Source of the DNA: Cellvibrionaceae bacterium 1162T.S.0a.05
GTDB taxonomy: Bacteria; Pseudomonadota; Gammaproteobacteria; Pseudomonadales; Cellvibrionaceae
Assembly: GCA_000964245.1 (NCBI GenBank)
Contig: LANB01000001.1
Location: forward strand, 847,501 to 911,500
DNA length: 64,000 bases
Reading direction: 5' to 3'
Numbering within the stretch: the first letter of the stretch is position 1; the number at the start of each line of letters is the position of its first letter. A program made the translations under genes and the position numbers. This document shows, piece after piece, positions 22,708-42,869 of the stretch. The notes under the pieces are model-generated. The model worked only from the letters and a program-made list of their open reading frames with translations, was not told the origin of the DNA and searched no databases.

Positions 22708-22727
22708 TGAATCAGGAATGGTTTATT

Positions 22728-23606: not shown

Positions 23607-23658
23607 GTATCACCTTTTTAGAACTTTAGACTTTTGTCAGTCATGTTTATTTATCGTT

Positions 23659-24567: not shown

Positions 24568-24568
24568 A

Positions 24569-25435
24569 TCACGTCGCTGGAATAAATTTCTGAAAAACAA
24601 GACACAATACAAAACCCACAATTGCCCACCAAGCCAGTGTTAAATGCCCAACTGCGGCAATTAGCGCTGCATCAACCAGGCATATCCCTGCAAGCAGGGC
24701 CGCTACGGCTTGGCCAATAGCGCCCGGCTTTGCCGCGAAAACTTTATGGACTGCACGCATAATCCAGGCGAGGAGAAACATACTCAGCAAAAAACTCGAG
24801 GTTTTCTCATAACCCAAATAAAAACTATACGCCACCGGTGACAACAATAACACTAAGGGAATTGCCGAGCTGAGGCGGTTGTCATGTTCAGCGCGAGCCA
24901 GTGCAGTAATTCCTGCAATGTACAACATTAGCGCGATACCCGCGATAGACACCTCAAGTGGCAGTGCGAGCCCCACCAGGCAGATACCAACCGTGAGATA
25001 GACAAGTAGACGGCAGGCCCCCATCAATAGCGGCGCAATAAGCGGCCAGGATTTATGCTTCCAGTCATAGAGACAGATAAAAGCAAATAAGACAAGCGAC
25101 ACAAACAACCCGGAAAGTTTGAATGTCGCCGAAGCAAGGATCAACATCAAAGCCAGACACAGAAAAATCAGGGCAAAGAGTAATACCTGAGTTTTCGTGC
25201 ATTGTCCGGCGGGCAAAGGACGCCCCGGATTGTGTTGTGCGTCCCACTCCGCGTCGAAATAATCATTCAAATACATGCCAGAAACGTAAAACAAACTCAT
25301 CGCCAACATAAGGAACCCGAGCTGCACCGCGCCACCAAGGGGCAGAGCACACAGCACCGCGGCGGTAAGTACATTGGTCCATACCGTGGGCAAATTAGAG
25401 ACCCTGCCCAGCACAAACGCGGTACGCAAGTTCAT
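24569..25435 (-). CDS. eboC: EboC, UbiA-family prenyltransferase-like membrane protein
   Basis: 288 residues with about eight to nine helices. The first aspartate-rich motif of UbiA enzymes is present as NDYFDAEWD near residue 57, and the second is reduced to LYDWKHKS-type residues near 125. GRVSNLPTVWTNVL at the start is typical. UbiA proteins join prenyl chains to aromatic acceptors in the membrane; in the ebo locus it may prenylate or bind the transported metabolite. The start codon overlaps the eboE stop (TAATG), and eboA starts one base after its stop. Confidence 0.88.
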   Translation of the reverse strand: MNLRTAFVLGRVSNLPTVWTNVLTAAVLCALPLGGAVQLGFLMLAMSLFYVSGMYLNDYFDAEWDAQHNPGRPLPAGQCTKTQVLLFALIFLCLALMLILASATFKLSGLFVSLVLFAFICLYDWKHKSWPLIAPLLMGACRLLVYLTVGICLVGLALPLEVSIAGIALMLYIAGITALARAEHDNRLSSAIPLVLLLSPVAYSFYLGYEKTSSFLLSMFLLAWIMRAVHKVFAAKPGAIGQAVAALLAGICLVDAALIAAVGHLTLAWWAIVGFVLCLVFQKFIPAT

Positions 25436-26691: not shown

Positions 26692-26727
26692 AAACCTGTG
26701 CGGAACCTCTGTAAAATAGCCTAATTT

Positions 26728-28539
26728 TCAGAATTTCCTTAATTTTTCTCGCGCGCGCAACAACGCTGCCGTTTCTATTTGATTGACTTCGAGCGTAGTA
26801 CCGATACCGGTCAACAAGGTTATACAGAGTTCACCGCCCAAATGTTGACGAAACTCCTCCAACCCAAGCACCAAAGCACTTTCACCCGCTTCATTCTCCC
26901 AGCATAGTGCTGGATGCCAAACATTGAAACCCAAAGCGCTGATAAGCTCAATCACTTTCTCAGAGACATCCTCGGTACATAAACCAACTTCAGCAGCGTA
27001 GAGTGCATCAAGCGCCATTCCGATAGCCACCGCTTCACCGTGCGATAGTTCATGTTTCGTCAGTGCTTCCAGTTTATGCGCAGCCCAATGACCGTAATCC
27101 AATGGACGGGCACTGCCCTGCTCGAAGGGATCACCACCGTTACATATTTGATTGAGATGCAGTTCCGCACAACGCTGAATGAGGTAGCGCGCAGCTTTTT
27201 CATCACGGCGGTTCAAAGCGTCAATATTTTTTTCTATCCAATAAAAAAACTGCCCATCCCGAATGAGGGCAACTTTAATCGCTTCAGCAAAGCCGGAACG
27301 GTAATCACGCTTCGAAAGCGTTTGTAAAAAATCGAGGTCATTGATGATGGCAGTAGGAACTGCGAAGCTACCGTAAAGGTTTTTTATGCCCATCGCATTA
27401 ATACCGTTCTTGACGCCCACGCCGGCATCGTTTTGCGCCAACACAGTCGTCGGCATGCGAACAAGACGAATACCGCGATGGAAGGTTGCCGCTGCATAGC
27501 CGACTGCATCCAGCACACCGCCACCGCCTATGGCAACCACGTAGCTTTGTCTGTCTAACGCAACGTCGAGCATATTTTGATACATGGCTTCTATTTGCGT
27601 CTGGGACTTTGCCGCATCACCTCCGGGCACAACATGCAATTGATCACAGTAATGAATGTTGTGCGCTTGGCAATAACTCTGAATGGCTTGTTTTAGATTT
27701 GCGTTTGCATCCCAAACACATTGATCAATAAAAAATTGTGCTTTAACTTGCTTGTGCGGATTTGCACCAAGGGTTTGTGCAAAGCAGGGATTGTTTTCCT
27801 GAAAAACACCGTGACAAAAATGCAGTGGGTAGTGAAAACGCAGTGTGAATTCCGGGTTTAATGTATCCGGCAAGTTTTCACTCGTTGAACTGACCTTGCT
27901 TTTACTGGCAAACTTTTTCCAGGCAAACATAAGCGAAGCTGGCAGTGCAACACTGGCGAAAAAAGCCAAAACAAAAGACGCTTCCTGCACAGCCCATACA
28001 GCAATAAGCGTGTAAACCAGTGCAATACCGGCATTCGCCATCGCACACACAAGCAAAAAGCGCTTGAACGAAATTTTTAACCAACCCGCAGCGACAACAC
28101 TGACTTCTGCCATCACTGGTACAGCGCGAAAAAAGACCAGGGCCAGCAAGCCCCAACGATTGGCGTAATCGCGCGCAATGCGCCATTCTTTTTCGCTAAA
28201 AAATTGTTTTATGATTTTTCCTCGTGACACGGAACCAAGAAAGTACCCGAAGCAGCAAGCCGCGCACAAACCCAGCCAAACACACACAAAACCCAACCAA
28301 AAGCCGAGGGACAGTGCGGAACCCACCGCAATCACACTGGAAGGAATGGGCAACAGGATATCCGAGGTGAGCAAGGCAAGGCTCACAAAAAACACAGCGA
28401 TTTTATTGACACCCTCGGACAGAATCGACGCCACAAAGGCCTGCAAGGGCGCATCCAGAACAAAATGAAGACCAACAATTACGGCGAAAGCCGCCAGGAC
28501 TAATATGCCCCAATTTTTGAGGGCGAACATACGCTGCAT
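26728..28539 (-). CDS. eboD: EboD with N-terminal VTT/DedA-like membrane domain fused to a dehydroquinate synthase-like cyclase
   Basis: 603 residues, first gene of the operon. Residues 1-215 hold about five to six helices of the VTT/TVP38/DedA type (LLPIPSSVIAVGSALSLGFW, GYFLGSVSRGKII, ALVFFRAVPVMAEVSVVAAGW, whose FFRAVPV resembles the F/GRF.P motif). A 15-residue linker leads to a sugar phosphate cyclase domain (about 228-603): GGGGVLDAVGYAAATFHRG for NAD, PTTVLAQNDAGVGVKNGIN, and metal ligands in GFAEAIK, YGHWAAH and LSHGEAVAIGM. Ordinary EboD and AroB are about 350-400 residues, so the membrane half is extra. The frame is open through the junction. The cyclase probably makes a cyclitol or dehydroquinate-like compound; an AroB role is less likely in this operon. 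Confidence 0.85.
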   Translation of the reverse strand: MQRMFALKNWGILVLAAFAVIVGLHFVLDAPLQAFVASILSEGVNKIAVFFVSLALLTSDILLPIPSSVIAVGSALSLGFWLGFVCVWLGLCAACCFGYFLGSVSRGKIIKQFFSEKEWRIARDYANRWGLLALVFFRAVPVMAEVSVVAAGWLKISFKRFLLVCAMANAGIALVYTLIAVWAVQEASFVLAFFASVALPASLMFAWKKFASKSKVSSTSENLPDTLNPEFTLRFHYPLHFCHGVFQENNPCFAQTLGANPHKQVKAQFFIDQCVWDANANLKQAIQSYCQAHNIHYCDQLHVVPGGDAAKSQTQIEAMYQNMLDVALDRQSYVVAIGGGGVLDAVGYAAATFHRGIRLVRMPTTVLAQNDAGVGVKNGINAMGIKNLYGSFAVPTAIINDLDFLQTLSKRDYRSGFAEAIKVALIRDGQFFYWIEKNIDALNRRDEKAARYLIQRCAELHLNQICNGGDPFEQGSARPLDYGHWAAHKLEALTKHELSHGEAVAIGMALDALYAAEVGLCTEDVSEKVIELISALGFNVWHPALCWENEAGESALVLGLEEFRQHLGGELCITLLTGIGTTLEVNQIETAALLRAREKLRKF

Positions 28540-28807: not shown

Positions 28808-29332
28808 CTAATCTTTTACCAGGCGAAGCATCTTATTGCGTATTCGTTCATCATATGTGGGAATTCCGCCCGCAAAATCAACATACCAGGAATAGTGGGT
28901 GTAGAAATGATAAGGCGAGGACGTCCATACATGCGATGAGGGTGTCCCGGGGAACACCGCAGTGTTTATCGCCGGGTTTGCACATTGGGTTTCCACCAGG
29001 GTACTCAATTCACGGATATTGGGCAGACGCCAGCCTGATTGAGGGTTTTCCTGAAGGTAGGCCAGCGCCTGCCCCCAATGCAATTCAAGGGCTTCCCCCG
29101 TGCCACACAGATCGCCTTGTAAACCCTCAACACAGCGCTTCCAAACCAGGCCGGTTTTACTGTCCAACACTTCCTCACCCGTTACAGTAAAGCGCTCAAG
29201 GGGAGTTGAAGCTGGAATATTGTCAGCCTGACATACAGGTTCTGCTTGTTGCGCCCAACCAAAGTTCACTGTCAAAGCCAGCAAGCCTGACGTAAGAATT
29301 AAATAGATTTTCATTCGCTCGTTGTTCTTCAT
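28808..29332 (-). CDS. DUF1566 (Lcl-like) exported protein
   Basis: 174 residues from ATG 29332, which overlaps the previous stop (ATGA). A signal peptide of about 25 residues ends after FGWAQ. The single DUF1566 domain is clear: SKTGLVWKRC, WGQALAYLQ, GWRLPNIRELSTLVE and the closing RNKMLRLVKD. DUF1566 is a formylglycine/C-type-lectin-like fold seen in surface adhesins such as Lcl. It is the last gene of the operon that begins with the giant redox protein. Confidence 0.85.
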   Translation of the reverse strand: MKNNERMKIYLILTSGLLALTVNFGWAQQAEPVCQADNIPASTPLERFTVTGEEVLDSKTGLVWKRCVEGLQGDLCGTGEALELHWGQALAYLQENPQSGWRLPNIRELSTLVETQCANPAINTAVFPGTPSSHVWTSSPYHFYTHYSWYVDFAGGIPTYDERIRNKMLRLVKD

Positions 29333-30165
29333 TTGACCGCCTCCGCCTGTGCATCCCATGTTCTTACAAGACGGACACTGCGCCCATTATCACGCTTCAT
29401 TTGCGCACTGAAACCAAATTGAAAACTGACTGCCCAGGCCATAGCGGGCTGACCAACAACCGGGGTATCACTCCAATAAAAGTTGTTTTTGGTATAGGGG
29501 AAGAAATCAGTATCAATTGCCGGCATGGTGCGACCAAAATGCACAAGGCTCTCAAGTTCAGCCCGGCTTGGGACCCGCCAATCCTGAAAACCACAAATAC
29601 CGTGTTTGTTCACACGGCTAACAAATTCTTCAATATTACAAAAGGTCATCGGCTGACCCTGGGTATAGCCAGTACACTGGTCGAAGCGCGCATTCCAGTC
29701 GCCCACTGCACCGCCATTCATTTTTGGGCGCGCGTTATACCAGGTAAACAAATCGTCACCATCGTGTAAACCGCGATTGCCGTAGGTATCATCCATGCCC
29801 ACTTTCACTTCCCAAACCAGGCCGCTCACTTTATCCAGCACACAGGCCCAGTCTTCCGTCTTATTATCCAGAAACTCGCCACTCGCGCTCATTTTTTGAT
29901 ACGCAAATGCAGGCTTCTGCTTGCCGGCATCAGCGCCTTGCATACAATCCTGAAAAGGCAGGATATCGCCACTGAATTCATCGCCGTCCAGCAACAAATC
30001 GCTGCGCACTTTCGCGCTGCAATCGTCGTTGATTTCCTTGGGGTAATCGGCGCCCCAGGTAATCCCTGTATCGTTGAGTTTACGCACGGGTTCGTCCGCA
30101 GATTGCTCACAAGAGGCGAGCAGAATTAAAGCGAAACAGGGCAAGGTTTTAATTAACTTATACAT
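29329..30165 (-). CDS. DUF1566 lipoprotein
   Basis: 278 residues. The leader MYKLIKTLPCFALILLASC has a lipobox (LASC), so it is a lipoprotein. The DUF1566 domain (about 100-270) shows CVLDKVSGLVWEVK, NKHGICGFQDWRVPSRAELESLV and a closing NGRSVRLVRTW. It is a longer paralogue of the next gene, with which it overlaps by four bases. Such proteins often accompany DUF1592/DUF1552 genes; binding of a surface glycan or protein is possible. Confidence 0.85.
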   Translation of the reverse strand: MYKLIKTLPCFALILLASCEQSADEPVRKLNDTGITWGADYPKEINDDCSAKVRSDLLLDGDEFSGDILPFQDCMQGADAGKQKPAFAYQKMSASGEFLDNKTEDWACVLDKVSGLVWEVKVGMDDTYGNRGLHDGDDLFTWYNARPKMNGGAVGDWNARFDQCTGYTQGQPMTFCNIEEFVSRVNKHGICGFQDWRVPSRAELESLVHFGRTMPAIDTDFFPYTKNNFYWSDTPVVGQPAMAWAVSFQFGFSAQMKRDNGRSVRLVRTWDAQAEAVK

Positions 30166-30228: not shown

Positions 30229-31485
30229 TCAGGTCAACACACCAGGAATCACATTGTTAGAGTAACCCTGATAGGCGGGATGCTCATCCGCACCCAAGGC
30301 TACCGCCGCTGTGTGAATCATATCGAGAGGTGTATAGGAAGAGCCACCCGCGTTGGACACACCACGTTGAATGGCGCCACCACCGCCCGCCATAACCAGC
30401 GGAACATTGTTGGAACCATGGCCATCGCCGTCGCCCATATCGGTCACTTCACACACAATGGTGCTATCGATAAGACCTGCGTTTCTCAGTGAACTGATAA
30501 CATTGGCCGACAAACTGCTCATGTGTGCGCGTGTTTCGCGGTAATGCGGATAGGTGGGATCACCACCGTTACCTCCATGAATACTCGCATGGTAGATGCC
30601 CGAGAAGTTGAGATACGGGAAAGCGAACTCTCCCTGGTGGTTACCAAAGGCTATGGAGGCCGACGAGGTCAAATTACACTGGAATGCCAGAGTAATGATC
30701 TCGGCTTGCAATTCCGCCTGCTGTTGGAAGGTGGAATATTCAAGCGGGAAAGTACTGGGCGCTGCGCCCGCATTACAGGAACCCGGCTCGCTATTGAGTG
30801 CATTCAAGCGCGCCTCGGTTTCTTCGATTGCCGTCAAATGGGAATCCAGGCGGTGTAACTCGTAGGAACCGAGCTTGCCTTTCAACGCATCCACACCTTC
30901 TTTATGTGCATCGATGATGTTGCCTTTGGGGTTGCCGCCCCCGCCACCGCCGCCACTTCCGCCATTACCGAATAGACGGTCAAAAGCATTGAAGGGGTTG
31001 TCTTCAAAAGGTACTTCCGTGTTGTTATCACGCGTCAAGTAACCATGACCGTTGGAGTGAACCCCGAGGTTAATGTAGGGGAAGGGGTTATTCTCACCGA
31101 TAGTGCGCCCAATGTTCACGTCGAAACTGTCGCCGGTCCATTGGTTGTTAATAATGGTTGGCATTACCCCATGCCCACCGCGGTGGTGACTCATATTGCG
31201 CAGAAAGTTACAGTCACTGGCCACTGACTGATAGGGCGCAGACATGGCGGGGAATGACGTTAGATTACTGTTCGGGAACCAATAGTTTGGCAAAGCACCA
31301 TCGGGGCAATAAATAACGACCGAACGGCTCGGGCCACTGCCTTGCGCTTCAGCCAGGCGGCTCAGCATCATGCCACCAACGAGAGGCGTCGAACGCAGTA
31401 ATCCACGCGTAATTCCCGCAGAAGTCAGGATTTTCAGTAGATCCCGACGCTTTTTATCAAATTTATTCTTGTATCGCTTTTTCAT
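30229..31485 (-). CDS. DUF1552 protein with Tat-type signal
   Basis: 418 residues. The N-terminus KKRRDLLKIL is a twin-arginine type signal followed by a hydrophobic stretch, so a folded, perhaps metal-bearing protein may be exported by Tat. The body matches DUF1552: SVVIYCPDGALPNYWFP, FLRNMSHHRGGHG, ITLAFQCNLTSSASIAFG, VTDMGDGDGHGSNNVPLVMAGG, an alkaline-phosphatase/sulfatase-like layout rich in His and Asp. A seven-glycine run occurs near residue 182. DUF1552 is nearly always next to DUF1592-group genes, as here (69 bp downstream of the giant protein). The reaction is unknown. Confidence 0.87.
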   Translation of the reverse strand: MKKRYKNKFDKKRRDLLKILTSAGITRGLLRSTPLVGGMMLSRLAEAQGSGPSRSVVIYCPDGALPNYWFPNSNLTSFPAMSAPYQSVASDCNFLRNMSHHRGGHGVMPTIINNQWTGDSFDVNIGRTIGENNPFPYINLGVHSNGHGYLTRDNNTEVPFEDNPFNAFDRLFGNGGSGGGGGGGNPKGNIIDAHKEGVDALKGKLGSYELHRLDSHLTAIEETEARLNALNSEPGSCNAGAAPSTFPLEYSTFQQQAELQAEIITLAFQCNLTSSASIAFGNHQGEFAFPYLNFSGIYHASIHGGNGGDPTYPHYRETRAHMSSLSANVISSLRNAGLIDSTIVCEVTDMGDGDGHGSNNVPLVMAGGGGAIQRGVSNAGGSSYTPLDMIHTAAVALGADEHPAYQGYSNNVIPGVLT

Positions 31486-31554: not shown

Positions 31555-34500
31555 TTAACGCGCCCAGGCTTTACGGAATCTCACCGCATCCATAACGCCC
31601 ATGCTTTCCAGCATGGCGCGCGGGCTGTCCTGCAACATCGTGTTTGTCAGGCTTTGTACTTCACAGGCATAACCGGTTTGCTCGGCGTCCGCCAAAGTCG
31701 GGCCTTCGGGGTTATCCACATCGATACCATCAACACCTACACCCACCACATAGCGGAAGAGGTTTTGTGGCACACACTGTTGTGCACTTGGCAAGGTCGC
31801 GAGTAATTCGCCCAAGCCTCGTGTACCTGAGAAGTTATGGAATATGTCCTTGTCATTCAGGCTTTCCGGTGCGTAGAGCTGGCCACTGGCATCAATCACA
31901 TTACCAGCGAGGTCAGTCGAACGTGGGTTACCCACCGCATTGAAGTCTTCCATACCGAAGCCCAGTGGGTTGATCCATTCACCGTGACAGACCTGACACT
32001 CTTCTGCACTGGTAATGGCTTCGTACTTCATACGGTTGGTTGTACTCGGATCCGACAGTAGGTCTGCAAAATCCTCCAGCGCTTGCGCACGGCCGAGAGC
32101 GATACCTGCAGGCGGCTCAGGTTGGTTCTGACACAACATTCTGCGTCGGACTCGCACTGAACGGCGAATTGGCGAGGTTTCAACTTCTTCTGCCCAGCGA
32201 GCCATAAAGGCGCCGTTGGCCAAAATACCGCCGCGGTCAGTGGTGCCGACTTCCTGGAAGCCATTGCCACTTACGCCATTGATGCCGTAGTGTTGCGCCA
32301 GCGGCCCATTCACAAAGGTGAAGTCGCCATTGTAGAGCGAGTCGTAACTTTCGTTGCCATCCAACATCACGTGAGCAAATACCAAACGGATTTCCTCTTT
32401 CATGTGCGGAATCAAGCTGTCGAAGTTAGACCAGGTCGCACTGTCTTTCGGTGCGCTCTCCAAACGGTCGGTATCAAGCCAGTTGCCGATGAAATCACCC
32501 ATCTTGCCGGATGCACGCGAGTCATTGAGCAGACGTTGTGCCTCAGTAAGAATGCCGGACTCTGATCGCAATTGATCATTTGCCGCTTTCTGCAGCGCCG
32601 TTGCGTCGGGTGTCGAACCGGTGAAGGTATAGGCCAACCAGGTCGCCATCTCATAAGAAGTCAACTCGAAGGCATCAGAATCAATCTGATTATTCGTGCC
32701 TTGTTCACCCACCTCATGGCGATAGAGGAACTGCGGAGAGGACAGCACGGCTTCAAGCGCCATCTGGATACCTGCCTTCACATCGCCGTTTGTTGCAGTA
32801 CCGTTGGCCATGGCCAGATAGGTATTGCGCTCATTGTTGTCGAGGGGACGTCGGAAAGCCCTGGTTCCGAAAGTGTCGACAAACTGGTTCGCACATGTCT
32901 GGTTGTAGTTACCACCACAGCTCAAAGCGCCCAAGAAGTCGCGATCCGCAGACCACTGAGCAAGCTCTTCAGCCACCGTTAAATAACGGTCGTAGGTGCT
33001 GGACACCACAGTCGCATGCGTGTTGTTAATGAAGTAACCGACAACAGCATCTGATGAAAGTCCATCAGCGGCGTCGAAGTTTACTCCCAACAAGTCTTCT
33101 ACCGTGTTCTGGTATTCACTGCGCGTGAGCAGTTTGATTTGGCGAGCCCCGTAAGGACGACTATCACAAATCAACTCCTGGTTTTGACTCCAATAGGTGT
33201 CCTCGAGATAGTCAGCCACCTTCTCGGCACACTCGGTACCACACGCGGCCGGATCAAATCGTGGCATCTCATCAGCAACGAAGGTGATGAAAGAATCCCG
33301 CGGGAAACTTTCATTCAACGCCACGCCGACAGTACCGCCACCCGCATCTGCGCCGTGACACTCGGAACACTCCTGTCGGTACCAATCTGCACCGGTAAGC
33401 GTGCCGCTGGACGAGGAGGAACTGGCTGAGCTACTGGAGCTACTTGAACTTGAAGAACTGCTGCTTGAACCTGGTCCGGTACACGTGGGCATTTCAAAAC
33501 TGCCATCGTGGGTGCCCTGGATGCCAAAGCTACCGGTTCCGCCATTCGCAGACAGGTTGCCATTGTGACCAACATCGGAAGCGGTAATAGTATTGCCACT
33601 CTCAACGAGGTTCACATTCCAGCTACCTGTAATGTTTGGCGACTCAGGGAAGTCGAGGGTAATTTCCCAACCGCTAACAGAAGCGCTGCCGTTGTTGGTT
33701 ACCGTCACATCCAGCTGATAGCCACTGTTCCAGACATTGGAGCCAGTAATGTCACAGGTCACGCCATTCCCACCACCGCCAGAAGAACTGGAGCTACTGC
33801 TGGATGAGCTTGAGCTGCTTGAGCTACTGCTCGAGCTGGAAGATGACGAACTTGAACTGGAGCTGGAAATTCCACCTTCGGGGTCAATGCGGTAAAGCTC
33901 GCCGCCATAATCCACGACGAAAATCTCACCGCCATTACTTTGACCAAAAGACGAAATATTCAGGCTGGTTTGAGCAACAAGGTAACGCTCATACACATCC
34001 GGAGCCGGATGACCGACAGCCCAAACTTCACCCACTTCGTAGTCGCCTACAAAGTAGAAACCATCGAGACCGGGGATGTTTGTTCCGCGATACACGAAGC
34101 CACCGGTAATAGAGGCGCCCTCGTTGTGCTGATAACCCTCAACCGGATCAACATAGGGACCTGAGCTGCCTTCACAACCGTAAGAGGTCTGATTGTAGCC
34201 TTCACGACAACTCCAACCGTAGTTGCCACCTTTTTCGATAATGTTAATTTCTTCAAAGGCATCCTCACCCACGTCGGCAAGCCAGATGCGGCCTGTCAGG
34301 CTGTCCACACTCCAGCGCCAGGGGTTACGCAAACCGTAAGCCCAGACTTCATCGAGTATGTTGGGATCGTTCACAAAGGGGTTATCCGCCGGTACGGTGT
34401 AGGTTTGACCACTATCCACATTGATACGAATCATTGTACTCGGGAAGTTGCCGCCATCCTGACCGCGATTCTGTGGATCGCGCTGCGAGCCACCATCACC

Positions 34501-37101
34501 AAAGGCTGCATAAAGGTAGCCATCGTGACCGAAGTGGATATCTCCACCATTGTGGTTTGAGTAAGGCTGATCGAATGTAAAGACGTCTTCTCGCGAATTC
34601 GGATCCAGATTGCCATTGGAGCTTTCGGTATAACGCGCGATCACTGTGCGCATCGGGCTCGCCTGACTGGTCGTCATCGAAATATAGACTTCTTTGTTAT
34701 TCGCATAATTCGGGTGGAAGGCAATGCCTAGCAAGCCGCCTTCGTTATTGGTGTTCACCGTATTACGCAAATCGATGTACGTGTTCTTCTGGGACGTTTG
34801 CTCGTTATTGGCATCAATCCAATAGAGCATGCCGCCCTTCTCTAACACGAAGTAGCGTGAATTATCACCCGGCGCCTGCGCGAAGCCCAGTGGAGACTGG
34901 AACCAGATATTCGGGTACGCACGCGTCAGCTGCACCGCTGGTGGCGCGCCCGGCGCAGAATAGCCGCCAGAACTGGTTGACGAACTGGAGCTGCTCGAAC
35001 TCGAGCTACTTGAGCTTGACGAACTGGAGCTGGAAGACGAGCTGGACGAGGAGCTGGAAGAACTCGAAGAGCTGCTCGAACTGCTGCTGGATGAGCTCGA
35101 GGAACTGGAGGAGCCATTGCCACCTTGAGAACCAGTCACATCAAGATCAATACTCCACACACGTTGCGCACCTGTGATGTACAGGGTTTTGCCATCTGCA
35201 CCACCGAAGGTTGAATTGGTGACATTGGCATCCACACTGATCGTCGCGAGTTGTGAGCCACTTGGGCTAAACACGCGAACACGGGCTTGCTCATGCTCAG
35301 AAATATAGAGGTTGCCGTGACAGTCAATCGTCATTCCGTCAGGGTTGCTCAATCCGGTAATGAAATTACTGCCGCTTTGGACTTGACCGTTAACGATGTT
35401 GTAAGCGCGCATCACGCCGGACACACTGCCCACGTAGAGCACATCTTCATTGGGCGACAGTGCAATCCCGTTGGGATTGTTCAAGCCGCTCTCAATCAAG
35501 GTCACCGTGCCATTGGTTGCAACCTGGTACACCCCTGTCACCGGTTGGCCAGGGTTCGAGCCCTGCTGATAATTCGGGTCAGTGAAATAAATCGTACCGT
35601 TAGAGGCAATTGCAATATCGTTCGGTGAATTAAAACCGGAACCGTTGTAGCTGTTAACGATGTCTGTGCGAGTACCCGACAAGGTGTAACGTGAAAGACC
35701 GGCAGTCGAGTGGGTCGCCGCAATAATGTTGCCCTGCGCATCCACAGCCAAACCGTTTGAACCACTGTTATTGATTTGCGTGGTCATATTGCCATTCGCG
35801 CTCAGACGCTGAATACGCGAGGGGTAACCGGACTGGAAGGTAAAGTCAGAGAAGTACAGCGCATCGTTAATCCATACAGGACCTTCGTACAAACCCGAGG
35901 TGTTGCGGGTTGTATCCGCGCCCGGGATGCGAGTCGCGGTGAGGTTACCCGATGGCGCAATGCCACACGCCGAACCGCCAGAACTCGAACTGGACGAGCT
36001 CGAGGAGCTGGACGAACTTGAGCTTGAGCTGCTGGAACTGGACGAACTCGAAGAACTACTGGAGTTGCCATTGCTGCCGCTGATACTGCCTGAAGCAACT
36101 GACAAGGTAACATTGTCGAGTTGTGCTCCGTCTTCACGGCGCTCAATGCGCAAGGTGTGGTTACCAGCTGACAAATTGTAGCTGGTGATCGCCAGAGAAC
36201 CCCAACCCGAGGTCTGGGTATTATTCTGGGTTGACCAGGTTCCGTTATCCATCTTGTAATGGAAAGAATCGTCGTCACCACTCGGCATATTCACGCGAAT
36301 TGCAAAATCCACGGTTGTTGCCTGCGACAAGCTGAAATCAATCGCCATCTGGCCGCTAGTGCTATCGGAAGCAGAAGAGTTAATCTGGTTAGAACCATTG
36401 TTCGGCCAAACTACATACTGGCCACCGGAAGCGCCCGCAGCACTTTGCACGCTAAAAGGCGAGAAATTGCTTTGACCAGACAAACTTTCCAGCTCAACTG
36501 TCAGTGATGTACCGCCACCACCCGAGGAACTCGAGCTACTGGACGAACTGGAGCTTGAACTGCTGGACGAGCTTGAACTCGAAGAACTCGAGCTGCTGGA
36601 ACTTGAGCTGGACGAACTCGAGCTTGAGGAACTTGAACTTGAGCTGGACGAACTCGAAGAAGAGCTGGAACTGCTCGACGAGGACGAACTGGAGCTCGAA
36701 CTGGAAGAGGTACTTCCACCGCCACACACATCACCCGTTACAACCGGTATTTCGGGGTCGCCGCTGCCACCCTTTGTGCCCTGGAAACCAAACTGGACCG
36801 ACTGTCCCGGTCCAATAGTCGCGTTCCAGGCTAGAGGTGTTGCAGTGTGGGGGTTGGAACCGCTGAAATTCGCATTCCAGCCACTGTCGAAGCTATCGCT
36901 GGCGTATTGCCAGGTGACTTCCCAGTCGTTGATAGTGGAGTTGGTGTCATTAGTGATTTCAATGTAAGCGACAAAACCGCTACTCCATTGATTGCTAATA
37001 CCGTATTCGCATGCGGCCATTGCTTGCTGTACGCCAAACAGCATGCCACACACGGCTGCGCCAGATAGCCATCTGGACAGGCGTGTTTTAGGGTTTTTCA
37101 T
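31555..37101 (-). CDS. Giant secreted redox scaffold: CBM2 - CBM35/6 - SMP-30 - PQQ sugar dehydrogenase - CBM2 - cytochrome c - DUF1592 group
   Basis: 1848 residues. Signal peptide 1-29; CBM2 (about 30-126, SGFVAYIEITN, GFQGTKGG); poly-Ser (132-193); CBM35/6-like (198-340, VELESLSGQ, LDNVTLSV); poly-Ser; SMP-30/gluconolactonase-like propeller (380-657, YEGPVWINDALYFSD, NSPNDIAIASNGTIYFTD); poly-Ser (664-711); PQQ sugar dehydrogenase-like propeller (716-1074, EGGLLGIAFHPNY, HNGGDIHFGHDGYLYAAFGDGG, VWAYGLRNPWRW); poly-Ser; second CBM2 (1112-1205); poly-Ser; cytochrome c with CSECH (1245-1249); then DUF1587/1595/1592/1588/1585-type domains to the end (LLTRSEYQNTVEDLLGV, SPQFLYRHE, TDRGGILANGAFMA), with a second heme motif CQVCH (1702-1706). 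It should be extracellular, bound to cellulose or chitin, and oxidise sugars. No in-frame interruption is seen. Confidence 0.88.
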   Translation of the reverse strand: MKNPKTRLSRWLSGAAVCGMLFGVQQAMAACEYGISNQWSSGFVAYIEITNDTNSTINDWEVTWQYASDSFDSGWNANFSGSNPHTATPLAWNATIGPGQSVQFGFQGTKGGSGDPEIPVVTGDVCGGGSTSSSSSSSSSSSSSSSSSSSSSSSSSSSSSSSSSSSSSSSSSSSSSSSSSSSSSSSSSSSSSSGGGGTSLTVELESLSGQSNFSPFSVQSAAGASGGQYVVWPNNGSNQINSSASDSTSGQMAIDFSLSQATTVDFAIRVNMPSGDDDSFHYKMDNGTWSTQNNTQTSGWGSLAITSYNLSAGNHTLRIERREDGAQLDNVTLSVASGSISGSNGNSSSSSSSSSSSSSSSSSSSSSSSSSSSSGGSACGIAPSGNLTATRIPGADTTRNTSGLYEGPVWINDALYFSDFTFQSGYPSRIQRLSANGNMTTQINNSGSNGLAVDAQGNIIAATHSTAGLSRYTLSGTRTDIVNSYNGSGFNSPNDIAIASNGTIYFTDPNYQQGSNPGQPVTGVYQVATNGTVTLIESGLNNPNGIALSPNEDVLYVGSVSGVMRAYNIVNGQVQSGSNFITGLSNPDGMTIDCHGNLYISEHEQARVRVFSPSGSQLATISVDANVTNSTFGGADGKTLYITGAQRVWSIDLDVTGSQGGNGSSSSSSSSSSSSSSSSSSSSSSSSSSSSSSSSSSSSSSSSSSSSSTSSGGYSAPGAPPAVQLTRAYPNIWFQSPLGFAQAPGDNSRYFVLEKGGMLYWIDANNEQTSQKNTYIDLRNTVNTNNEGGLLGIAFHPNYANNKEVYISMTTSQASPMRTVIARYTESSNGNLDPNSREDVFTFDQPYSNHNGGDIHFGHDGYLYAAFGDGGSQRDPQNRGQDGGNFPSTMIRINVDSGQTYTVPADNPFVNDPNILDEVWAYGLRNPWRWSVDSLTGRIWLADVGEDAFEEINIIEKGGNYGWSCREGYNQTSYGCEGSSGPYVDPVEGYQHNEGASITGGFVYRGTNIPGLDGFYFVGDYEVGEVWAVGHPAPDVYERYLVAQTSLNISSFGQSNGGEIFVVDYGGELYRIDPEGGISSSSSSSSSSSSSSSSSSSSSSSSSSSSSGGGGNGVTCDITGSNVWNSGYQLDVTVTNNGSASVSGWEITLDFPESPNITGSWNVNLVESGNTITASDVGHNGNLSANGGTGSFGIQGTHDGSFEMPTCTGPGSSSSSSSSSSSSSSASSSSSSGTLTGADWYRQECSECHGADAGGGTVGVALNESFPRDSFITFVADEMPRFDPAACGTECAEKVADYLEDTYWSQNQELICDSRPYGARQIKLLTRSEYQNTVEDLLGVNFDAADGLSSDAVVGYFINNTHATVVSSTYDRYLTVAEELAQWSADRDFLGALSCGGNYNQTCANQFVDTFGTRAFRRPLDNNERNTYLAMANGTATNGDVKAGIQMALEAVLSSPQFLYRHEVGEQGTNNQIDSDAFELTSYEMATWLAYTFTGSTPDATALQKAANDQLRSESGILTEAQRLLNDSRASGKMGDFIGNWLDTDRLESAPKDSATWSNFDSLIPHMKEEIRLVFAHVMLDGNESYDSLYNGDFTFVNGPLAQHYGINGVSGNGFQEVGTTDRGGILANGAFMARWAEEVETSPIRRSVRVRRRMLCQNQPEPPAGIALGRAQALEDFADLLSDPSTTNRMKYEAITSAEECQVCHGEWINPLGFGMEDFNAVGNPRSTDLAGNVIDASGQLYAPESLNDKDIFHNFSGTRGLGELLATLPSAQQCVPQNLFRYVVGVGVDGIDVDNPEGPTLADAEQTGYACEVQSLTNTMLQDSPRAMLESMGVMDAVRFRKAWAR

Positions 37102-37902
37102 TATTAGCCCCTGATTTTAGTTTTATATTGTGATGGCATTAATGCATACACTAATGCCAGCTTCGCAAACATGTCACGGAAGGATACCCCCAGGGTGGGG
37201 GCTTGTCTACACACTAACCAACAAAGCGTGACCCGATAGCCGTGGAATCTGTGCCTTGCTTCTACTGCCAAAAAAGAAAAGCGGGACAGCCCGCCCGATT
37301 CAGAATGGAGCGCAAGCATTCAAGCGACAAACTCGCTGAGACAGCACCTCTTTCCCTGCATCATTCGACTTCCTGATATTCAACGACCCATTCCTGAATA
37401 AAGAGAAAAAACAGCACTGACTTTTTGCAAGTGACCAACGATCCGAAAAAACATTTCCGCCTGCGCAGTTTTTTAATTCGACATTATTATTTCAATGTGG
37501 GCATTAAAAACGACGCCCTGCATTGCATTGATTAAAAACGGTTATTTCAAAAAAATGACACACTAAAACAAATCCTTTTTAAGGAAGTACGCATATTTTT
37601 ACAAAATTAAATAATTAATATTTTTTATACAGACAATTACCCAAATCTAAACACAATGTATTCAACGACAAGATTACCAGATAATTTATCGCCCTCATTT
37701 AAATAATTTATTTAAAAAATATTTTTTATTTAGAAAAAACTGATCACGCTTTGTTAAATTTTTTCAATCACAGTGATTCAGATTTTTATGTGGCCTTCTT
37801 GCACCAATAAGTGGCAATGTCTGCCCACCAAAAACGGGCATTGATTAACATGAAGCAAATGCCAAAGCAGTAAAACAAATGACAACTCTTTACGGAGGCA
37901 TT
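37102..37902. other. Long intergenic region between the giant redox gene and katG
   Basis: Nothing here looks coding. It holds the divergent promoters. A G/C hairpin (CCCCC AGGG TGGGG, about 37177-37191) lies near the giant gene. From about 37540 to 37760 the sequence is strikingly A/T-rich with many A- and T-tracts, which suggests curved DNA or a nucleoid-protein binding region. An AATCAC-A-GTGATT inverted repeat sits at 37766-37778. Confidence 0.65.
37766..37778. promoter_or_regulatory. Perfect inverted repeat upstream of katG
   Basis: AATCAC and GTGATT flank a single A, about 125 bp before the katG start. The symmetry suggests a dimeric repressor or activator site; it does not look like an OxyR site. 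Confidence 0.3.
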
Positions 37903-40110
37903 ATGAAAATAAAACAGACATTGTTTGCCATTGGCATTAGCGCAGGCTTGGCATGGCAACCTTCTTATGCACAAGACGACATCAAAACAAATGACTATTG
38001 GTGGCCTAATCGTCTTAACCTGGAACCGCTGCGAAAACATTCCGAAAAATCCAATCCAATGGGCGACGAATTTAATTACGCTCAAGCCTTTTCCCAACTT
38101 GATCTCGATGCCGTAAAAAAAGATTTAATTGACGTTATGACAACATCGCAAGATTGGTGGCCGGCTGACTACGGACATTACGGTCCATTTTTTATTCGTA
38201 TGGCCTGGCACAGCGCTGGCACCTACCGAACAAGTGATGGTCGTGGCGGCTCAGACGGCGGCATGCAACGTTTCGCACCGCTAAACAGTTGGCCCGACAA
38301 CGCCAACCTGGATAAAGCCCAACGTTTACTTTGGCCCATCAAACAAAAATATGGTCGCAATATTTCATGGGGTGACTTAATGGTTCTGGCGGGCACTGTT
38401 GCCATGGAATCCATGGGCTTTAAAACCTACGGTTTCGCAGGCGGACGCGAAGACAAATGGGAACCCGAGTGGGTAAACTGGGGCAGTGAAGGAAAATGGC
38501 TCGAAGCAAAACGCCGTGATAAAAGTGGCAGCCTTAAAAAACCCTTTGGCGCCACCCAAATGGGTTTGATTTATGTAAATCCGGAAGGCCCGGGCGGCAA
38601 TCATGATCCTCTCGCTGCAGCACAAGCAATACGTGAAGCCTTCGGTCGCATGGCGATGAACGATGAAGAAACGGCAGCCCTGATTGCCGGCGGCCACACA
38701 TTTGGTAAAGCGCACGGCGCACACAAACCTGAAGAGTGTGTGGGTGTCGAACCGGAAGCCGCGGGTCTTGAAGAACAGGGTTTGGGTTGGCGCAACAAAT
38801 GTGGCAGTGGTAAAGGTGCAGACACGGTAACAAGCGGACTCGAAGGCGCCTGGACTGTGAGCCCAGCCGAATGGACCCACAACTATTTGCAAAACCTCTA
38901 CGGTTTCGAGTGGGTCAAAACCAAAAGCCCGGCAGGTGCAACCCAATGGATACCGGCAGATGGTGCTGGCGCTAATCTTGTTCCGGACGCACATGACCCC
39001 AACAAGCGTCATGCTCCCATCATGTTCACCACCGACCTCGCATTAAGAGAAGACCCCGCCTACCGCAAAATTACATCGCGCTGGCTGAAAAACCCTGAAG
39101 AATTTGAACTCGCTTTTGCAAAAGCGTGGTTTAAACTCACGCACCGTGACCTCGGCCCGCGCGCACGCTATCTCGGTAAATACGCCCCCCAGGAAGATCT
39201 GGTCTGGCAGGACCCTGTGCCCGAAGTTGATTACAAATTGGCAAGCAAGCGCGACATCGCGAAGCTTAAAAAGAAAATCATGGAAACAGGCTTGAGTCAG
39301 GATGCCCTCATACGTACCGCCTGGGCTTCAGCCTCAACCTACCGCAACACCGATATGCGTGGCGGCGCGAATGGTGGCCACATTCGTCTCGAACCACAAA
39401 AAAACTGGCGCGTGAACAACCCATCCGAACTCAACAAAGTGCTCACGGCGCTTGAAAAAATTCAGAAAGAATTTAACAGCAAATCGGGTAGCAAAAAAAT
39501 CTCGATGGCAGATTTAATTGTACTCGGTGGCGCAGCAGCAATTGAGCAAGCAGCCAGGAAAGGTGGCTATGACATTGATGTACCTTTTACGCCTGGTCGC
39601 GCCGACGCGCTGCAAGAGCACACTGACATTGATTCCTTTAATGCCCTTAAACCAACAGCCGATGGCTTCCGGAATTATTTTTCTGCTAGCTACAGCACCA
39701 CACCTGTCGACGCCCTTGTCAATAAAGCAGAAATGCTCGGCTTGAGTGTACCGGAAATGACAGCTTTAGTTGGTGGCCTGCGTGTCCTCAATGCAAACTA
39801 CCAGGAGGCGGCTCACGGCGTGTTTACCGACAAACCCGGAACGCTCAGTAATGATTTCTTCGTAAACCTTCTGGATCTTTCCTTGCAATGGCGCAAGGCA
39901 AAACAAGCAGGCATTTATGAAGGGGTTGATCGAGCGAGCGGCAAAGTACGTTGGACTGGTACGCCAGTGGATTTGATTTTTGGATCCAATTCGGAACTGC
40001 GTGCTGTAGCCGAGTTTTACGCGGCTAACGATGCCAAAGACCAGTTTGCGCAAGATTTTGTCAACGCCTGGGCAAAAGTGATGACTGCAGATCGCTTCGA
40101 TCTTAATTGA
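37903..40110 (+). CDS. katG: Exported catalase-peroxidase KatG
   Basis: 735 residues from ATG 37903, preceded by GGAGG; ATG 37879 would spoil the signal peptide. The leader [23 protein letters not shown] predicts cleavage after residue 23, so the enzyme acts in the periplasm, like E. coli O157 KatP. Active-site residues are all present: Arg99, Trp102 and His103 ([11 protein letters not shown]), proximal His265 ([10 protein letters not shown]) and the Trp102-Tyr224-Met250 cofactor ([17 protein letters not shown]). The C-terminal half is the usual heme-free duplicate. It removes hydrogen peroxide; beside an extracellular redox operon it may protect against peroxide made outside the cytoplasm. 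It stands alone, facing two heme/WxxW genes across a shared terminator. Confidence 0.95.
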
Positions 40111-40174: not shown

Positions 40175-41497
40175 TTATTCAATATCGCAAATAAACCTGA
40201 CAACATAATTAGAACAGTTGCCATTGGGTTGGTCTTCGTTTTTACACACCAAACCCGTTGTACCAAACTCACGCAATTCATCGTTGGGCGCATAAACATG
40301 ATATTCGCCACGTTCATGAACTCGCGCCTGCATCACGGTTGGGTTTGCACATAGCCCATTGATGCGCGAGCGCCGTTCAGTGTCATAATTTCCTCCGGGG
40401 CTGTCGGTATTAAACCACTCGGTCCATTCGCCGTCACAAAGGTAACGTGTTGAATAATCACTGCACTGACCATCACTTTGGTCTGAGTTTTTACACACCA
40501 GCCCCTCCCTCAAACTGAATTTTCTGAACTTGTCAGGAAAGTCATAACCACCCGGCCCACCACCGGAACGAAAAATATAATCACTGCCAACAACTCGAGC
40601 TTCCATATATTGGGGGCTGTCACAATGAAAATGGGGATACTCCCTTTTTACATCCCGCAGGCGCTCATGATCACCTGTTCCACCCTGGGTGTCCCTGTTG
40701 ATCCAACGGTAATCACTGTAGCGATTTTGAGTCGGTGGCATCGCATCACCAACCGTTGAGATGACAGTAGCAATTGAGGGCAAGACCCTAAAGGAACGGC
40801 CAAAGTTGTCTGTGTGTATCACATCTGCGCGAGTCGAGTTTAACGCGATCGCGTGGCAAGCATTTGCACAGGTATCGGTATCGACAAAAGTATCAGCCAA
40901 CGTATCCCAGTGACTAAAGGCCTGCCCCACTGCCGAATAGCGCTCAGCAAACACATCATGCCCGTTGTTTAACAAACCAAACTTCGCCAGGGCCGGAGCA
41001 ATACGCTCAGTCACAATGTAAGGACCTTTTGCATGGCAGGAAATACATTGCATTTCACTATTAGCAAAATCATCCGGCTGCTCCCAATATTGCTCAGCCT
41101 GCCAGCTTGTCGGTGAAATCATACGCGCAGAAACTTCGGTCTGCGGATCATTGTCTGCATCCTTTGCACTGAAATAACAGGTCTTACCACTGGTTCGATT
41201 GTGGATCATCATTTCAACACTTTGCGCCGTTCCATCAGGAAAATCTGAAGCCCACCGACACGCAAAGGTCAAATCGACACTTGGCGTTAAACGACGATAG
41301 CCAACATAATCGTTGATTGGCGTTACCGGAGGATTATAAAAAAGTTCACCATCTGTAAAACAATCCAGTTCAGGAACGTGTTCAAAACCCAGCTCTGCTT
41401 TGCAGGTATTCACGTATTGCCACAAAGCTTCGGCTGGAAGCGCTGGTGAAAACACGATAAGGGGGGCAATTAAAAAACGATAAATCCTTTTTTTCAT
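40175..41497 (-). CDS. Exported c-type heme protein with two mucin-like WxxW (CysD) domains, paralogue 2
   Basis: 440 residues from ATG 41497; upstream codons to 41524 overlap the previous gene and would bury the signal peptide (MKKRIYRFLIAPLIVFSPALPAEA). The N-terminal part (25-255) has a heme c motif CISCH (151-155) and a wider CANACH (210-215). The C-terminal half holds two repeats of about 85 residues: YRWINRDTQGGTGDHE..HCDSPQYMEAR..GLVCKNSDQ..CSDYSTRYLC (263-354) and WTEWFNTDSPGG..LCANPTVMQAR..GLVCKNEDQ..CSNYVVRFIC (358-437). These fit the Mucin2_WxxW family of vertebrate mucins by the W-x2-W, conserved cysteines and CxNxDQ. It follows its paralogue by 13 bp. Function unknown; an extracellular electron-carrying or peroxidase-like protein is possible. 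Confidence 0.8.
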   Translation of the reverse strand: MKKRIYRFLIAPLIVFSPALPAEALWQYVNTCKAELGFEHVPELDCFTDGELFYNPPVTPINDYVGYRRLTPSVDLTFACRWASDFPDGTAQSVEMMIHNRTSGKTCYFSAKDADNDPQTEVSARMISPTSWQAEQYWEQPDDFANSEMQCISCHAKGPYIVTERIAPALAKFGLLNNGHDVFAERYSAVGQAFSHWDTLADTFVDTDTCANACHAIALNSTRADVIHTDNFGRSFRVLPSIATVISTVGDAMPPTQNRYSDYRWINRDTQGGTGDHERLRDVKREYPHFHCDSPQYMEARVVGSDYIFRSGGGPGGYDFPDKFRKFSLREGLVCKNSDQSDGQCSDYSTRYLCDGEWTEWFNTDSPGGNYDTERRSRINGLCANPTVMQARVHERGEYHVYAPNDELREFGTTGLVCKNEDQPNGNCSNYVVRFICDIE

Positions 41498-41510
41498 ATC
41501 CAGGCCCCTA

Positions 41511-42869
41511 TCAGTCGCAATCAAAACGGACTATATAGTTATTACACTTGCCATCATCCTGGTCATCGTTTTTACAAACAAGGCCATTGCGATCAAATTT
41601 CCGTAAGCGGTCGGGGCTACCATTGAGTTTCACTGTGTGCGTGAAGAGGCCAAGGATATCCACAGTAAATCGCGCCTGAATTGCACTGGGGTTTGCGCAT
41701 AAATTTGGAAAACGTGAACGACTTTCATTGTCAGCCGTACCAGAGGGACTGTCTGTACTTTTCCAACCTGTCCAACTTGATCCACATTTGTAACGCGTTT
41801 GGAAATCAGGACAACTCGCGCCATCCTGATCTTCATTTTTGCAAAGCAGACCCTGCTCAAGATTAAAGTAACGCAAATTCGCGACCGTATCGTTTCCGTA
41901 ATAGACTTTATCGCTCCCCACTGTGCGGGCCTCAATAGCCTTCGGGTTGTCACAGTGAAGTTTGGGATAATCTTTTTTAACATCCGACATGCGCTCGTGA
42001 TCACCACTCCCGCCGGCGGTATCCCGATTAATCCAACGAAATTCGCTTAGCCTCGAAAGCGGTGGCATCATGTCTTCGCGCTCAATTTCACCAATAACAT
42101 GATGGATGGAAGGCATGACAACCTGTTCTGTGCCACCAAAATCCTGAATGTCATTACCAATAATGGAATCCACACGAGGATAATCGCGCATCACATGGCA
42201 ACCCGCAGCACAAGAGGGCTGATAAACGTCATCCAGATGCCCATTGAGGGTGTTCACGTTCGAGAGACTTGTGCGGCCGGCGGCGTGATAACGTGTATTG
42301 AAGGTGTCATGTTTGTCGTTGATTAGACCGTATTTTGCCAATGGCCCAACTATACCCGGAGAAGCAATATAGGGCCCGGCAGTATGGCACTCTGTACAAT
42401 TTTCACCGGCATCCCAAAAAGTGGGGCCTTTCGAATGCGTCGGTGAAACCGGCTTTATATCGTACTGTGGCCACACCCGATCAGAGAACGTGTCTTTTTT
42501 TAATTCGAAAAAACACGTTCCGCCTGTTTTCCTGTTGTGAACGATCATTTCACCACTGACGGTTTTGCCGTTATGACCAAACGCACCCACCCATCGGCAG
42601 GCATAAATCGCATCAACATTATTGGTGATACTCCGGTGCGCAACATAATCATTGGAGAAACCAAAATTCAATTGCGTGACATTTCGGTCTGAGCTCGAGC
42701 GAAATAAATCATCAACACAACTGAAGGAAGGCAAACTGTTAAAGTCGAGCTCCTCCTTACAATCTGCAACATATTTTTTAAAATCACTTTCACTTAAAGT
42801 TACAGCAGACGTCGACGCCGGCACCCAAACCAGAGCCAATGAAAAAATGGCAAGTATTAAACGTATCAA
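41511..42869 (-). CDS. Exported c-type heme protein with two mucin-like WxxW (CysD) domains, paralogue 1
   Basis: 452 residues with signal peptide MIRLILAIFSLALVWVPASTSA. It has the same layout as the next gene: heme c motif CTECH (158-162), a conserved wider CAAGCH (220-225), and a conserved Cys-rich N-terminal part (CKEEL, FSCVDDLF, ACRWVG, CFFEL). Two WxxW-type repeats follow: FRWINRDTAGGSGDHE..HCDNPKAIEAR..GLLCKNEDQ..CPDFQTRYKC (about 277-362) and WTGWKSTDSPSGT..LCANPSAIQAR..GLVCKNDDQ..CNNYIVRFDC (366-451). The cysteines suggest disulfides, so it should act outside the cytoplasm. The pair looks like a tandem duplication kept as an operon. I know no named bacterial family for the whole chain. 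Confidence 0.8.
   Translation of the reverse strand: MIRLILAIFSLALVWVPASTSAVTLSESDFKKYVADCKEELDFNSLPSFSCVDDLFRSSSDRNVTQLNFGFSNDYVAHRSITNNVDAIYACRWVGAFGHNGKTVSGEMIVHNRKTGGTCFFELKKDTFSDRVWPQYDIKPVSPTHSKGPTFWDAGENCTECHTAGPYIASPGIVGPLAKYGLINDKHDTFNTRYHAAGRTSLSNVNTLNGHLDDVYQPSCAAGCHVMRDYPRVDSIIGNDIQDFGGTEQVVMPSIHHVIGEIEREDMMPPLSRLSEFRWINRDTAGGSGDHERMSDVKKDYPKLHCDNPKAIEARTVGSDKVYYGNDTVANLRYFNLEQGLLCKNEDQDGASCPDFQTRYKCGSSWTGWKSTDSPSGTADNESRSRFPNLCANPSAIQARFTVDILGLFTHTVKLNGSPDRLRKFDRNGLVCKNDDQDDGKCNNYIVRFDCD

Follow-up and report, generated by a model that had tools for sequence, protein, structure and literature searches.

The stretch of DNA analysed here, referred to as the window, comprises 64,000 nucleotides of contig LANB01000001.1 from Cellvibrionaceae bacterium 1162T.S.0a.05 (assembly GCA_000964245.1, positions 847,501 to 911,500 of the forward strand). 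The gene under study occupies positions 31555-37101, where a single open reading frame (ORF) on the minus strand, with an ATG start and no internal stops, encodes a protein of 1848 amino acids (aa). This protein joins carbohydrate-binding modules (CBM), two propellers and a c-type cytochrome to a heme-bearing block, X132, and its gene is followed by genes for a DUF1552 protein and two Lcl_C-domain proteins. The features are the following:

31555..37101, minus strand: whole ORF, 1848 aa, in the order CBM2, binding module, SGL, GSDH, CBM2, cytochrome c (X183), X132 (ORF reading, Pfam)
37015..37101, minus strand: signal peptide of the Sec type, residues 1-29 (sequence, by eye)
36724..37014, minus strand: N-terminal CBM2, residues 30-126, the best CBM2 stretch (Pfam)
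36094..36510, minus strand: binding module, residues 198-336, formerly labelled CBM35/6-like (likeness to a module in a GH10 protein of the same genome)
35167..35886, minus strand: SMP-30/gluconolactonase-like propeller (SGL), residues 406-645, with Glu406, Asn494, Asn544 and Asp588 (Pfam E 1e-38; alignment)
33910..34899, minus strand: GSDH propeller of HHIP type, residues 735-1064 (Pfam E 1.9e-49; profile, fold and residue mapping)
33472..33768, minus strand: second CBM2, residues ~1112-1210 (Pfam)
33205..33396, minus strand: cytochrome c (X183-like), residues 1236-1299, with CSECH at 1245 and Met1279 as likely axial ligand (Pfam E 6.7e-8; matches to PDB 8q1w and 8q1v)
31558..33174, minus strand: X132, that is PSD3-PSD5-PSD4-PSCyt3, residues 1310-1848, with CQVCH at 1702 (Pfam, alignment)
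30229..31485, minus strand: DUF1552 (HXXSHH) protein, 418 aa, twin-arginine N-terminus, 69 bp downstream of the 1848-aa ORF (Pfam, loci, alignment)
29329..30165, minus strand: LclC_1, an Lcl_C-domain protein of 278 aa, whose N-terminus by eye resembles a lipobox (Pfam)
28808..29359, minus strand: LclC_2, an Lcl_C-domain protein of 183 aa overlapping LclC_1 by 31 bp; judged by eye, a Sec signal probably starts at an internal Met (Pfam)

A first-pass annotation of this DNA had described one exported chain with two CBM2s, an SMP-30-like propeller, a propeller resembling sugar dehydrogenases dependent on pyrroloquinoline quinone (PQQ), a cytochrome c and DUF1592-group domains. The ORF, its Sec signal (recognised by eye) and the Pfam search bear out both the composition and the order, all domain matches being above the cut-off with scores far beyond chance. 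Within X132, the Pfam bounds are 1324-1383 for PSD3, 1403-1463 for PSD5, 1480-1607 for PSD4 and 1623-1730 for PSCyt3. The two heme motifs and the poly-Ser linkers are also present as described, the serine runs covering residues 132-193, 347-374, 664-708, 1079-1107 and 1212-1225, and the cytochrome combines its CSECH motif with a distal Met, the column of Met1279 being Met in nine of nine aligned sequences. The CBM35/6 label of residues 198-336 was not borne out, as the Pfam search of this segment reached no CBM family; a copy of the module, 73% identical over 120 aa, is carried by another protein encoded in this genome, one with GH10, CBM60 and CBM10 matches.

By sequence, the 1848-aa protein is orthologous to TERTU_3803 of Teredinibacter turnerae and kin to Cbp2D of Cellvibrio japonicus, and its architecture is not new. 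An ORF of a related genome (G044) is matched over residues 135-375 by PDB 8q28, 'Gluconolactonase domain protein', with 555 bits and, because we take PDB 8q28 to be TtX122A, this ORF was identified as TERTU_3803. According to the published sources, TERTU_3803 is composed of CBM10, CBM2, X122, a pf08450-X173 pair, X183 and X132 (PMC10916295, IUCrJ 2024), and in work on proteins of the Cbp2D/TERTU_3803 type the full-length protein was not obtainable and isolated domains were studied. A secretome study of 2025 reports the E7MBN homolog of TERTU_3803 in a cellulose-grown culture and states a likeness to the fungal AA12 enzyme CcPDH (PMC12055684), so that both the architecture and the idea put forward in the first-pass annotation were already in print. 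That annotation, sound as to the domains, had missed this published twin and the DUF1552 partner gene.

The DUF1552 gene lies 3' of the X132 ORF, on the same strand and at no more than 190 bp, in 37 of 37 loci (window included), and the X132 heme motif is present in all 37 ORFs. The 36 loci other than the window were gathered in two ways, eight because an ORF longer than 1300 aa gave a GSDH match and 28 through DUF1552 (from 63 DUF1552 places), so that in these 28 the informative direction is that X132 always adjoins. In an order-wide draw of 76 genomes, seven of the eight DUF1552 places over the cut-off lay within 0.7 kb of PSCyt3 (four of five outside the family, where the sole miss, G194, is a genome 75% complete), and seven of the nine PSCyt3 places over the cut-off had DUF1552 within the same distance. 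In an alignment of 17 DUF1552 proteins, every sequence has the two Arg of the N-terminal twin-arginine motif. Nearby Lcl_C genes occur at 25 of the 37 loci, and some of the remaining 12 are truncated at contig ends (L045, L070, L075). DUF1552 adjoins Cbp2D too, in the genome whose 1122-aa ORF contains PDB 7b21 'cbp2D'. The PSCyt2 and PSCyt3 genes of Verrucomicrobia are reported to be usually beside two gene families without an assigned role (PMC5615132), and no publication pairing Cbp2D with HXXSHH, DUF1552 or PF07586 was found in main texts, supplements lying outside the search. What is new with respect to the literature searched is, in the first place, this constant unit of cytochrome c-X132 and a DUF1552 gene, found also beside Cbp2D. 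The genome of the window holds a second X132-DUF1552 pair (G000:C1, ~2,485,200-2,491,000; L047), whose 1393-aa protein has four CxxCH motifs, and which lies near the GH10 protein bearing the same binding module as residues 198-336.

The modules ahead of this unit are exchanged. A tree of X132 was built from 40 proteins, with four loci beyond the 37 and one row (L081) dropped by length, and the front ends of these proteins are SGL plus GSDH in six, GSDH in 15, YceI in 13, other in four and cut in two. When the four 'other' and the two contig-end-cut rows are excluded, 34 typed proteins remain, on which the choice between GSDH and YceI changed at least four times (three without one long branch); a single YceI clade is rejected (p-AU 0.023, several branches being long). 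YceI, assigned by Pfam in the relatives and by homology in the Cbp2D locus, thus stands in place of GSDH in 13 of 34 proteins, which indicates that the engine needs no dehydrogenase, and the scanned YceI-type loci also encode a separate CBM2-YceI protein, which is the arrangement of Cbp2E. A second class of proteins, of ~1900-2280 aa, carries CBM26 repeats, GSDH, a di-heme stretch, cytochrome c and an X132 that includes PSD2 (Pfam, three proteins); PSD2 was over the cut-off in these three scanned relatives and was not found in the 1848-aa protein. DUF1552 adjoins this class in all three flanked loci (L086, L087, L090), the flank of a fourth (L088) being cut. Eleven of 19 genomes have CBM26 within ORFs 1904-2323 aa long; this count is no frequency, since these genomes were chosen partly for their long GSDH ORFs. 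The 2284-aa CBM26 ORF of the Cbp2D-bearing genome is probably Cbp26A, C. japonicus having one CBM26-family Cbp gene, cbp26A, whose expression rises on cellulose, mannans, xyloglucan and starch (PMC12542752). In the portions of the literature covered by our search (PMC12055684, PMC12542752), no description of the CBM26-GSDH-cytochrome-X132 architecture was found. The second new element with respect to that literature is therefore the exchange itself, in which the inputs (GSDH or YceI) and the binding modules (CBM2/CBM10 or the starch-binding CBM26) vary ahead of the constant unit.

Outside the X132 proteins, CBM2-GSDH proteins of ~670 aa without a heme motif are found at L050 7050-9050 and L051 7249-9267 (Pfam on L050 only); by eye, the C-terminus of the G060 copy is CBM10-like and that of the G019 copy CBM2-like. 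A genome-contig scan gave two GSDH relatives, 42% and 37% identical in the best segment, and viral-contig scans for X132 and GSDH relatives gave none.

With regard to the GSDH propeller, a profile of nine orthologs searched against the PDB gave human HHIP as the best match (143 bits, against 101 bits for sGDH). The structure prediction that the first-pass annotation had called for was made in part: an AlphaFold model (three sequences; predicted local distance difference test, pLDDT, of 60), which served only as support for this ranking, again placed HHIP first by fold, with sGDH and Asd behind. HHIP is not known to be an enzyme. A rival explanation is that the propeller, like that of HHIP, serves for binding and not for catalysis, and that the redox chain is formed by cytochrome c, X132 and DUF1552, with electrons arriving from elsewhere. 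The substitution of GSDH by YceI and the negative assay of the ortholog TERTU_3803 described below agree with this possibility. Against it stand the repeated fusion of GSDH to cytochromes (four of the five GSDH proteins examined in the genome of the window, in which an SGL plus GSDH query matched 13 places, are joined to c-type heme motifs) and the residues of the cofactor site.

Positions of sGDH were mapped onto all 21 proteins with GSDH and X132 among the 37 loci, with the Asd of the same genome as a control. The equivalents of His144, Arg228, Asn229 and Gly247 are kept in 21 of 21, whereas those of Pro248, Arg406 (whose role we take to be binding of the PQQ carboxylate) and Arg408 are found in none; the control keeps all mapped positions, and RxR and GP are present in five aligned PDB enzymes. 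In the window protein, His850, Arg925, Asn926 and Gly945 are kept, and Pro248 is replaced by Glu946, Arg406 by Asn1048 and Arg408 by Ser1050. The same pattern of kept and lost residues occurs in three CBM26-type proteins and in three further GSDH proteins of the same genome. In the profile alignment, human HHIP has His-Asp at the place of the bacterial Arg-Asn and, since the bacterial proteins keep this pair, their HHIP-type propeller would appear to be constrained as an enzyme. Gln76 was discarded as a marker of PQQ loss, because PDB 3a9g and 2ism align Glu there too.

The first-pass annotation had read the propeller as a PQQ sugar dehydrogenase that makes an aldonolactone, which the SGL propeller next to it opens while the hemes carry the electrons away. 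Such a protein would be a bacterial counterpart of the fungal AA12-AA8-CBM1 proteins. The strong GSDH and SGL family matches, the kept catalytic His and Arg/Asn and the intact SGL ligands speak for it, as does the 202-aa stretch of the window GSDH that, searched alone, scores E. coli Asd (77.8 bits) marginally above HHIP (76.0 bits). The loss of PQQ- and calcium-binding residues, which that annotation had named as grounds for withdrawing it, turned out to be divided, the Arg pair and the calcium-site Pro being lost in all 21 proteins and the His, Arg, Asn and Gly kept, so that canonical PQQ chemistry is not supported in the form proposed. In sGDH, Lys377 pairs with the PQQ carboxylate, Arg408 is the bacterial counterpart of the PQQ-binding Arg of AA12, and Gly247 and Pro248 hold the calcium (PMC6881789, PMC6881810); the loss of Pro248 is a soft criterion, because main-chain carbonyls are involved in calcium binding in the bacterial enzymes (PMC6881789, PMC6881810). 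Furthermore, AA12 binds PQQ without the bacterial residue set, through other residues (Arg273, His539, His560 and Arg621 in CcPDH; PMC4133262, PMC6881789), and the loss of the bacterial set consequently leaves PQQ possible.

Other evidence is less favourable to a canonical PQQ enzyme. The score of the NCBIfam PQQ subfamily TIGR03606 is far under its cut-off (78 against 434.55 bits), and PqqE is over the cut-off in 12 of 144 family genomes and in just one of the 21 GSDH-type genomes (G016), with no match over the cut-off in the genome of the window. This last argument is weak, because bacteria that do not synthesise PQQ, such as E. coli, use it from the environment (PMC6881789) and because PqqE is not rarer with the operon than without it (1/22 and 11/122 genomes, p 0.69, the 22 being those with a DUF1552 match of E 2.6e-174 or better). 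The absence of PqqE was in fact rejected as proof against PQQ, as the genome of the window has an intact-site Asd and yet no PqqE over the cut-off. This Asd-type dehydrogenase (L078 1286-2707, minus strand), with an N-terminal cytochrome c and intact PQQ residues, is a candidate user of scavenged PQQ.

The first-pass annotation had also allowed for the same architecture being assigned already, and the twin in print proved enzymatically negative as an isolated pair: pf08450-X173 of TERTU_3803 showed no detectable binding of PQQ by isothermal titration calorimetry and lacked detectable glucose dehydrogenase activity whether or not PQQ was added (PMC10916295). The lost residues and this experiment weaken the dehydrogenase step of the cascade. 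Since the assays of TERTU_3803 and of the X183 domains used isolated domains, they lower the cascade rather than exclude it; it remains possible, with its middle step weakened, and as a whole we regard it as no more probable than the non-catalytic propeller, both being unlikely, although they are the next most likely explanations after the one preferred below.

The lactonase-like propeller fares better on its residues than on its distribution. The SMP-30-type metal ligands Glu406, Asn494, Asn544 and Asp588, whose positions and roles (Glu/Asn/Asn/Asp) we take from regucalcin, are all intact, contrary to the loss that the first-pass annotation had thought damaging, and the motifs are present in four of four aligned SGL proteins. 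SGL was found in six of the 21 GSDH-type loci and in none of the 16 others (Fisher p 0.03); its absence from 15 of 21 GSDH-type loci is a further point against the PQQ cascade. As the six are confined to two genera, SGL is best seen as an optional accessory, weakly associated with GSDH. Stand-alone SGL genes flanking GSDH, which could have been independent support for a cascade, were found in none of 13 loci (~1.5 kb on each side). Of the cascade from dehydrogenase to lactonase to hemes there remain, then, an exported cellulose-binding redox protein and its SGL ligands, and not the canonical PQQ chemistry or a general presence of SGL.

A third rival is that the protein is a direct electron donor to AA10 lytic polysaccharide monooxygenases (LPMO) on cellulose. 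The CjX183 domain from Cbp2D is reported to have reduced an LPMO and thereby switched on the degradation of cellulose (PMC8981238), and the phylogenetic profile proposed in the first-pass annotation does show co-occurrence: AA10 (LPMO10) is present in 90 of 144 family genomes and in 19 of the 21 GSDH-type genomes, and in 20 of the 22 genomes with a close DUF1552 ortholog against 70 of the 122 others (Fisher p 0.003, kinship uncorrected). This co-occurrence is suggestive of LPMO coupling and is confounded by kinship. On the other hand, the TtX183 domains of TERTU_2913, another T. turnerae protein, passed no electrons to TtAA10, and O2 oxidised them rapidly; the domains purified in that study did not include X183 of TERTU_3803 (PMC10916295). 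The search for LPMO10 gave no match in two of the 21 GSDH-type genomes (G108, G120). The starch-binding version moreover indicates that the engine is not tied to cellulose, so that LPMO donation is at most one use of it. With relatives giving mixed results, direct donation is ambiguous, and as an explanation of the whole protein it seems distinctly unlikely.

The authors of the TERTU_3803 work proposed an extracellular wire (PMC10916295), by which intracellular respiratory electrons would exit through the hemes to an outside acceptor, with the binding modules serving for attachment only. The two hemes of the window protein, and the up to four heme motifs of its relatives, are in line with it. 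Against it, there are just two motifs in 1848 aa, separated by long domains and Ser linkers, and no porin or multiheme family was found among 18 scanned neighbouring proteins of the window; this is the least probable of the explanations considered, with a small chance of being right.

The most likely explanation is that of an oxidoreductase platform tethered to polysaccharide, in which the cofactor site is altered. Taken whole, as a cellulose-tethered secreted oxidoreductase of the Cbp2D/TERTU_3803 kind, this explanation is held tentatively, at a little under an even chance. The engine would be the c-type cytochrome (X183) together with the heme-bearing X132 block, working with the DUF1552 protein. 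The CBM2 modules would anchor the protein to cellulose, and attachment of the complex to the cell surface may be the task of the two Lcl_C proteins, of which one is probably a lipoprotein. As an exchangeable electron input, the GSDH propeller of HHIP type would most likely still oxidise a soluble sugar or similar donor through its His/Arg/Asn triad, with a cofactor held unlike PQQ in sGDH and Asd, perhaps another quinone or PQQ in an altered pocket of the AA12 type. The electrons would pass to the heme at 1245 and then to that at 1702 and DUF1552. In proteins that have an SGL propeller, its role would be to open the lactone that is formed.

Several observations weigh against this explanation. 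X132 has no match among PDB chains, the single PDB match of DUF1552 has E 0.47, and a single-sequence structure model of DUF1552 reached a pLDDT of 37; two of the nine PSCyt3 places in the order-wide draw lack a DUF1552 match. The best PDB relative of the propeller by profile and fold is HHIP, YceI can replace it, and the isolated pair of TERTU_3803 was inactive. The association of SGL with GSDH falls to p 0.06 without two contig-end-cut loci (L066 and L075, among the 16), and all six SGL carriers belong to the genus of the window and one other, so that these loci are not independent.

A wider proposal is that Cbp2D, TERTU_3803, the window protein and the CBM26 proteins are one polysaccharide-tethered redox platform, its cytochrome c-X132/DUF1552 engine being aimed at cellulose or starch by exchangeable modules and fed by exchangeable inputs of quinone type, either YceI or an HHIP-type propeller with the triad kept and the PQQ clamp lost, with DUF1552-X132 as a catalytic centre acting on the glucan itself. 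We consider it doubtful, although somewhat less so than any of the rivals above. The starch-binding version suggests an engine for glucans generally and not for LPMO-cellulose chemistry alone, and the constant DUF1552 neighbour offers a concrete reason why work on isolated domains may have missed an activity. Since the triad is kept and the PQQ clamp lost, the annotation 'PQQ dehydrogenase' becomes a checkable question about the cofactor. The broader issue is how bacteria supply or use extracellular electrons in the attack on cellulose, where Cbp2D and Cbp2E are important to cells growing on filter paper. With the constant DUF1552 partner and the exchanges between cellulose and starch binding and between GSDH and YceI, the Cbp2D question becomes testable.

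Other genes of the window were also noted. A catalase-peroxidase, KatG, which judged by eye seems to have a signal peptide, is encoded divergently from the 1848-aa gene (37879-40110, plus strand); it was rejected as part of the system, as the other 36 loci, whose flank lengths differ, gave no KatG match. On the minus strand, 21310-28539 holds in one cluster a phosphodiesterase, TatD, UbiA, two proteins without a Pfam match and a protein resembling 3-dehydroquinate synthase that has a VTT domain fused at its N-terminus; the cluster resembles the ebo/edb genes. Two adjoining proteins with Mucin2_WxxW repeats, which to our knowledge are unusual in bacteria, are encoded at 40175-42869 (minus strand).

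Among known systems, TERTU_3803 is the closest, with the same order of SGL, GSDH, CBM2, cytochrome c and X132 (X132 being 69% and GSDH 61% identical to those of the window protein) and the same downstream DUF1552 and Lcl_C genes, although its N-terminus carries CBM10 and X122 where the window protein has CBM2 and the module at 198-336. Cbp2D/Cbp2E of C. japonicus, which are associated with growth defects on cellulose (PMC12542752, PMC8981238), share CBM2, cytochrome c (X183), X132 and the adjoining DUF1552 gene, and differ in having YceI (X158) and a separate CBM2-YceI protein instead of SGL and GSDH. The CBM26-type proteins, one of them of 2284 aa in the Cbp2D-bearing genome, have GSDH, cytochrome c, X132 and the DUF1552 neighbour in common with the window protein, from which they are distinguished by starch-binding CBM26 repeats and an extra di-heme stretch, with SGL and CBM2 unmatched. 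The fungal AA12 enzyme CcPDH (AA8-AA12-CBM1) likewise has, within a single polypeptide, a cytochrome, a module that binds cellulose and a GSDH-like propeller of six blades, but its AA8 heme is of b type and its PQQ is proven (PMC6881789), in contrast to the c-type motifs and X132 of the window protein. Finally, the GSDH fold is common to sGDH and Asd, PQQ enzymes that keep Pro248, Arg406 and Arg408 where the window protein does not, and to HHIP, which has lost the Arg-Asn pair that the window protein keeps.

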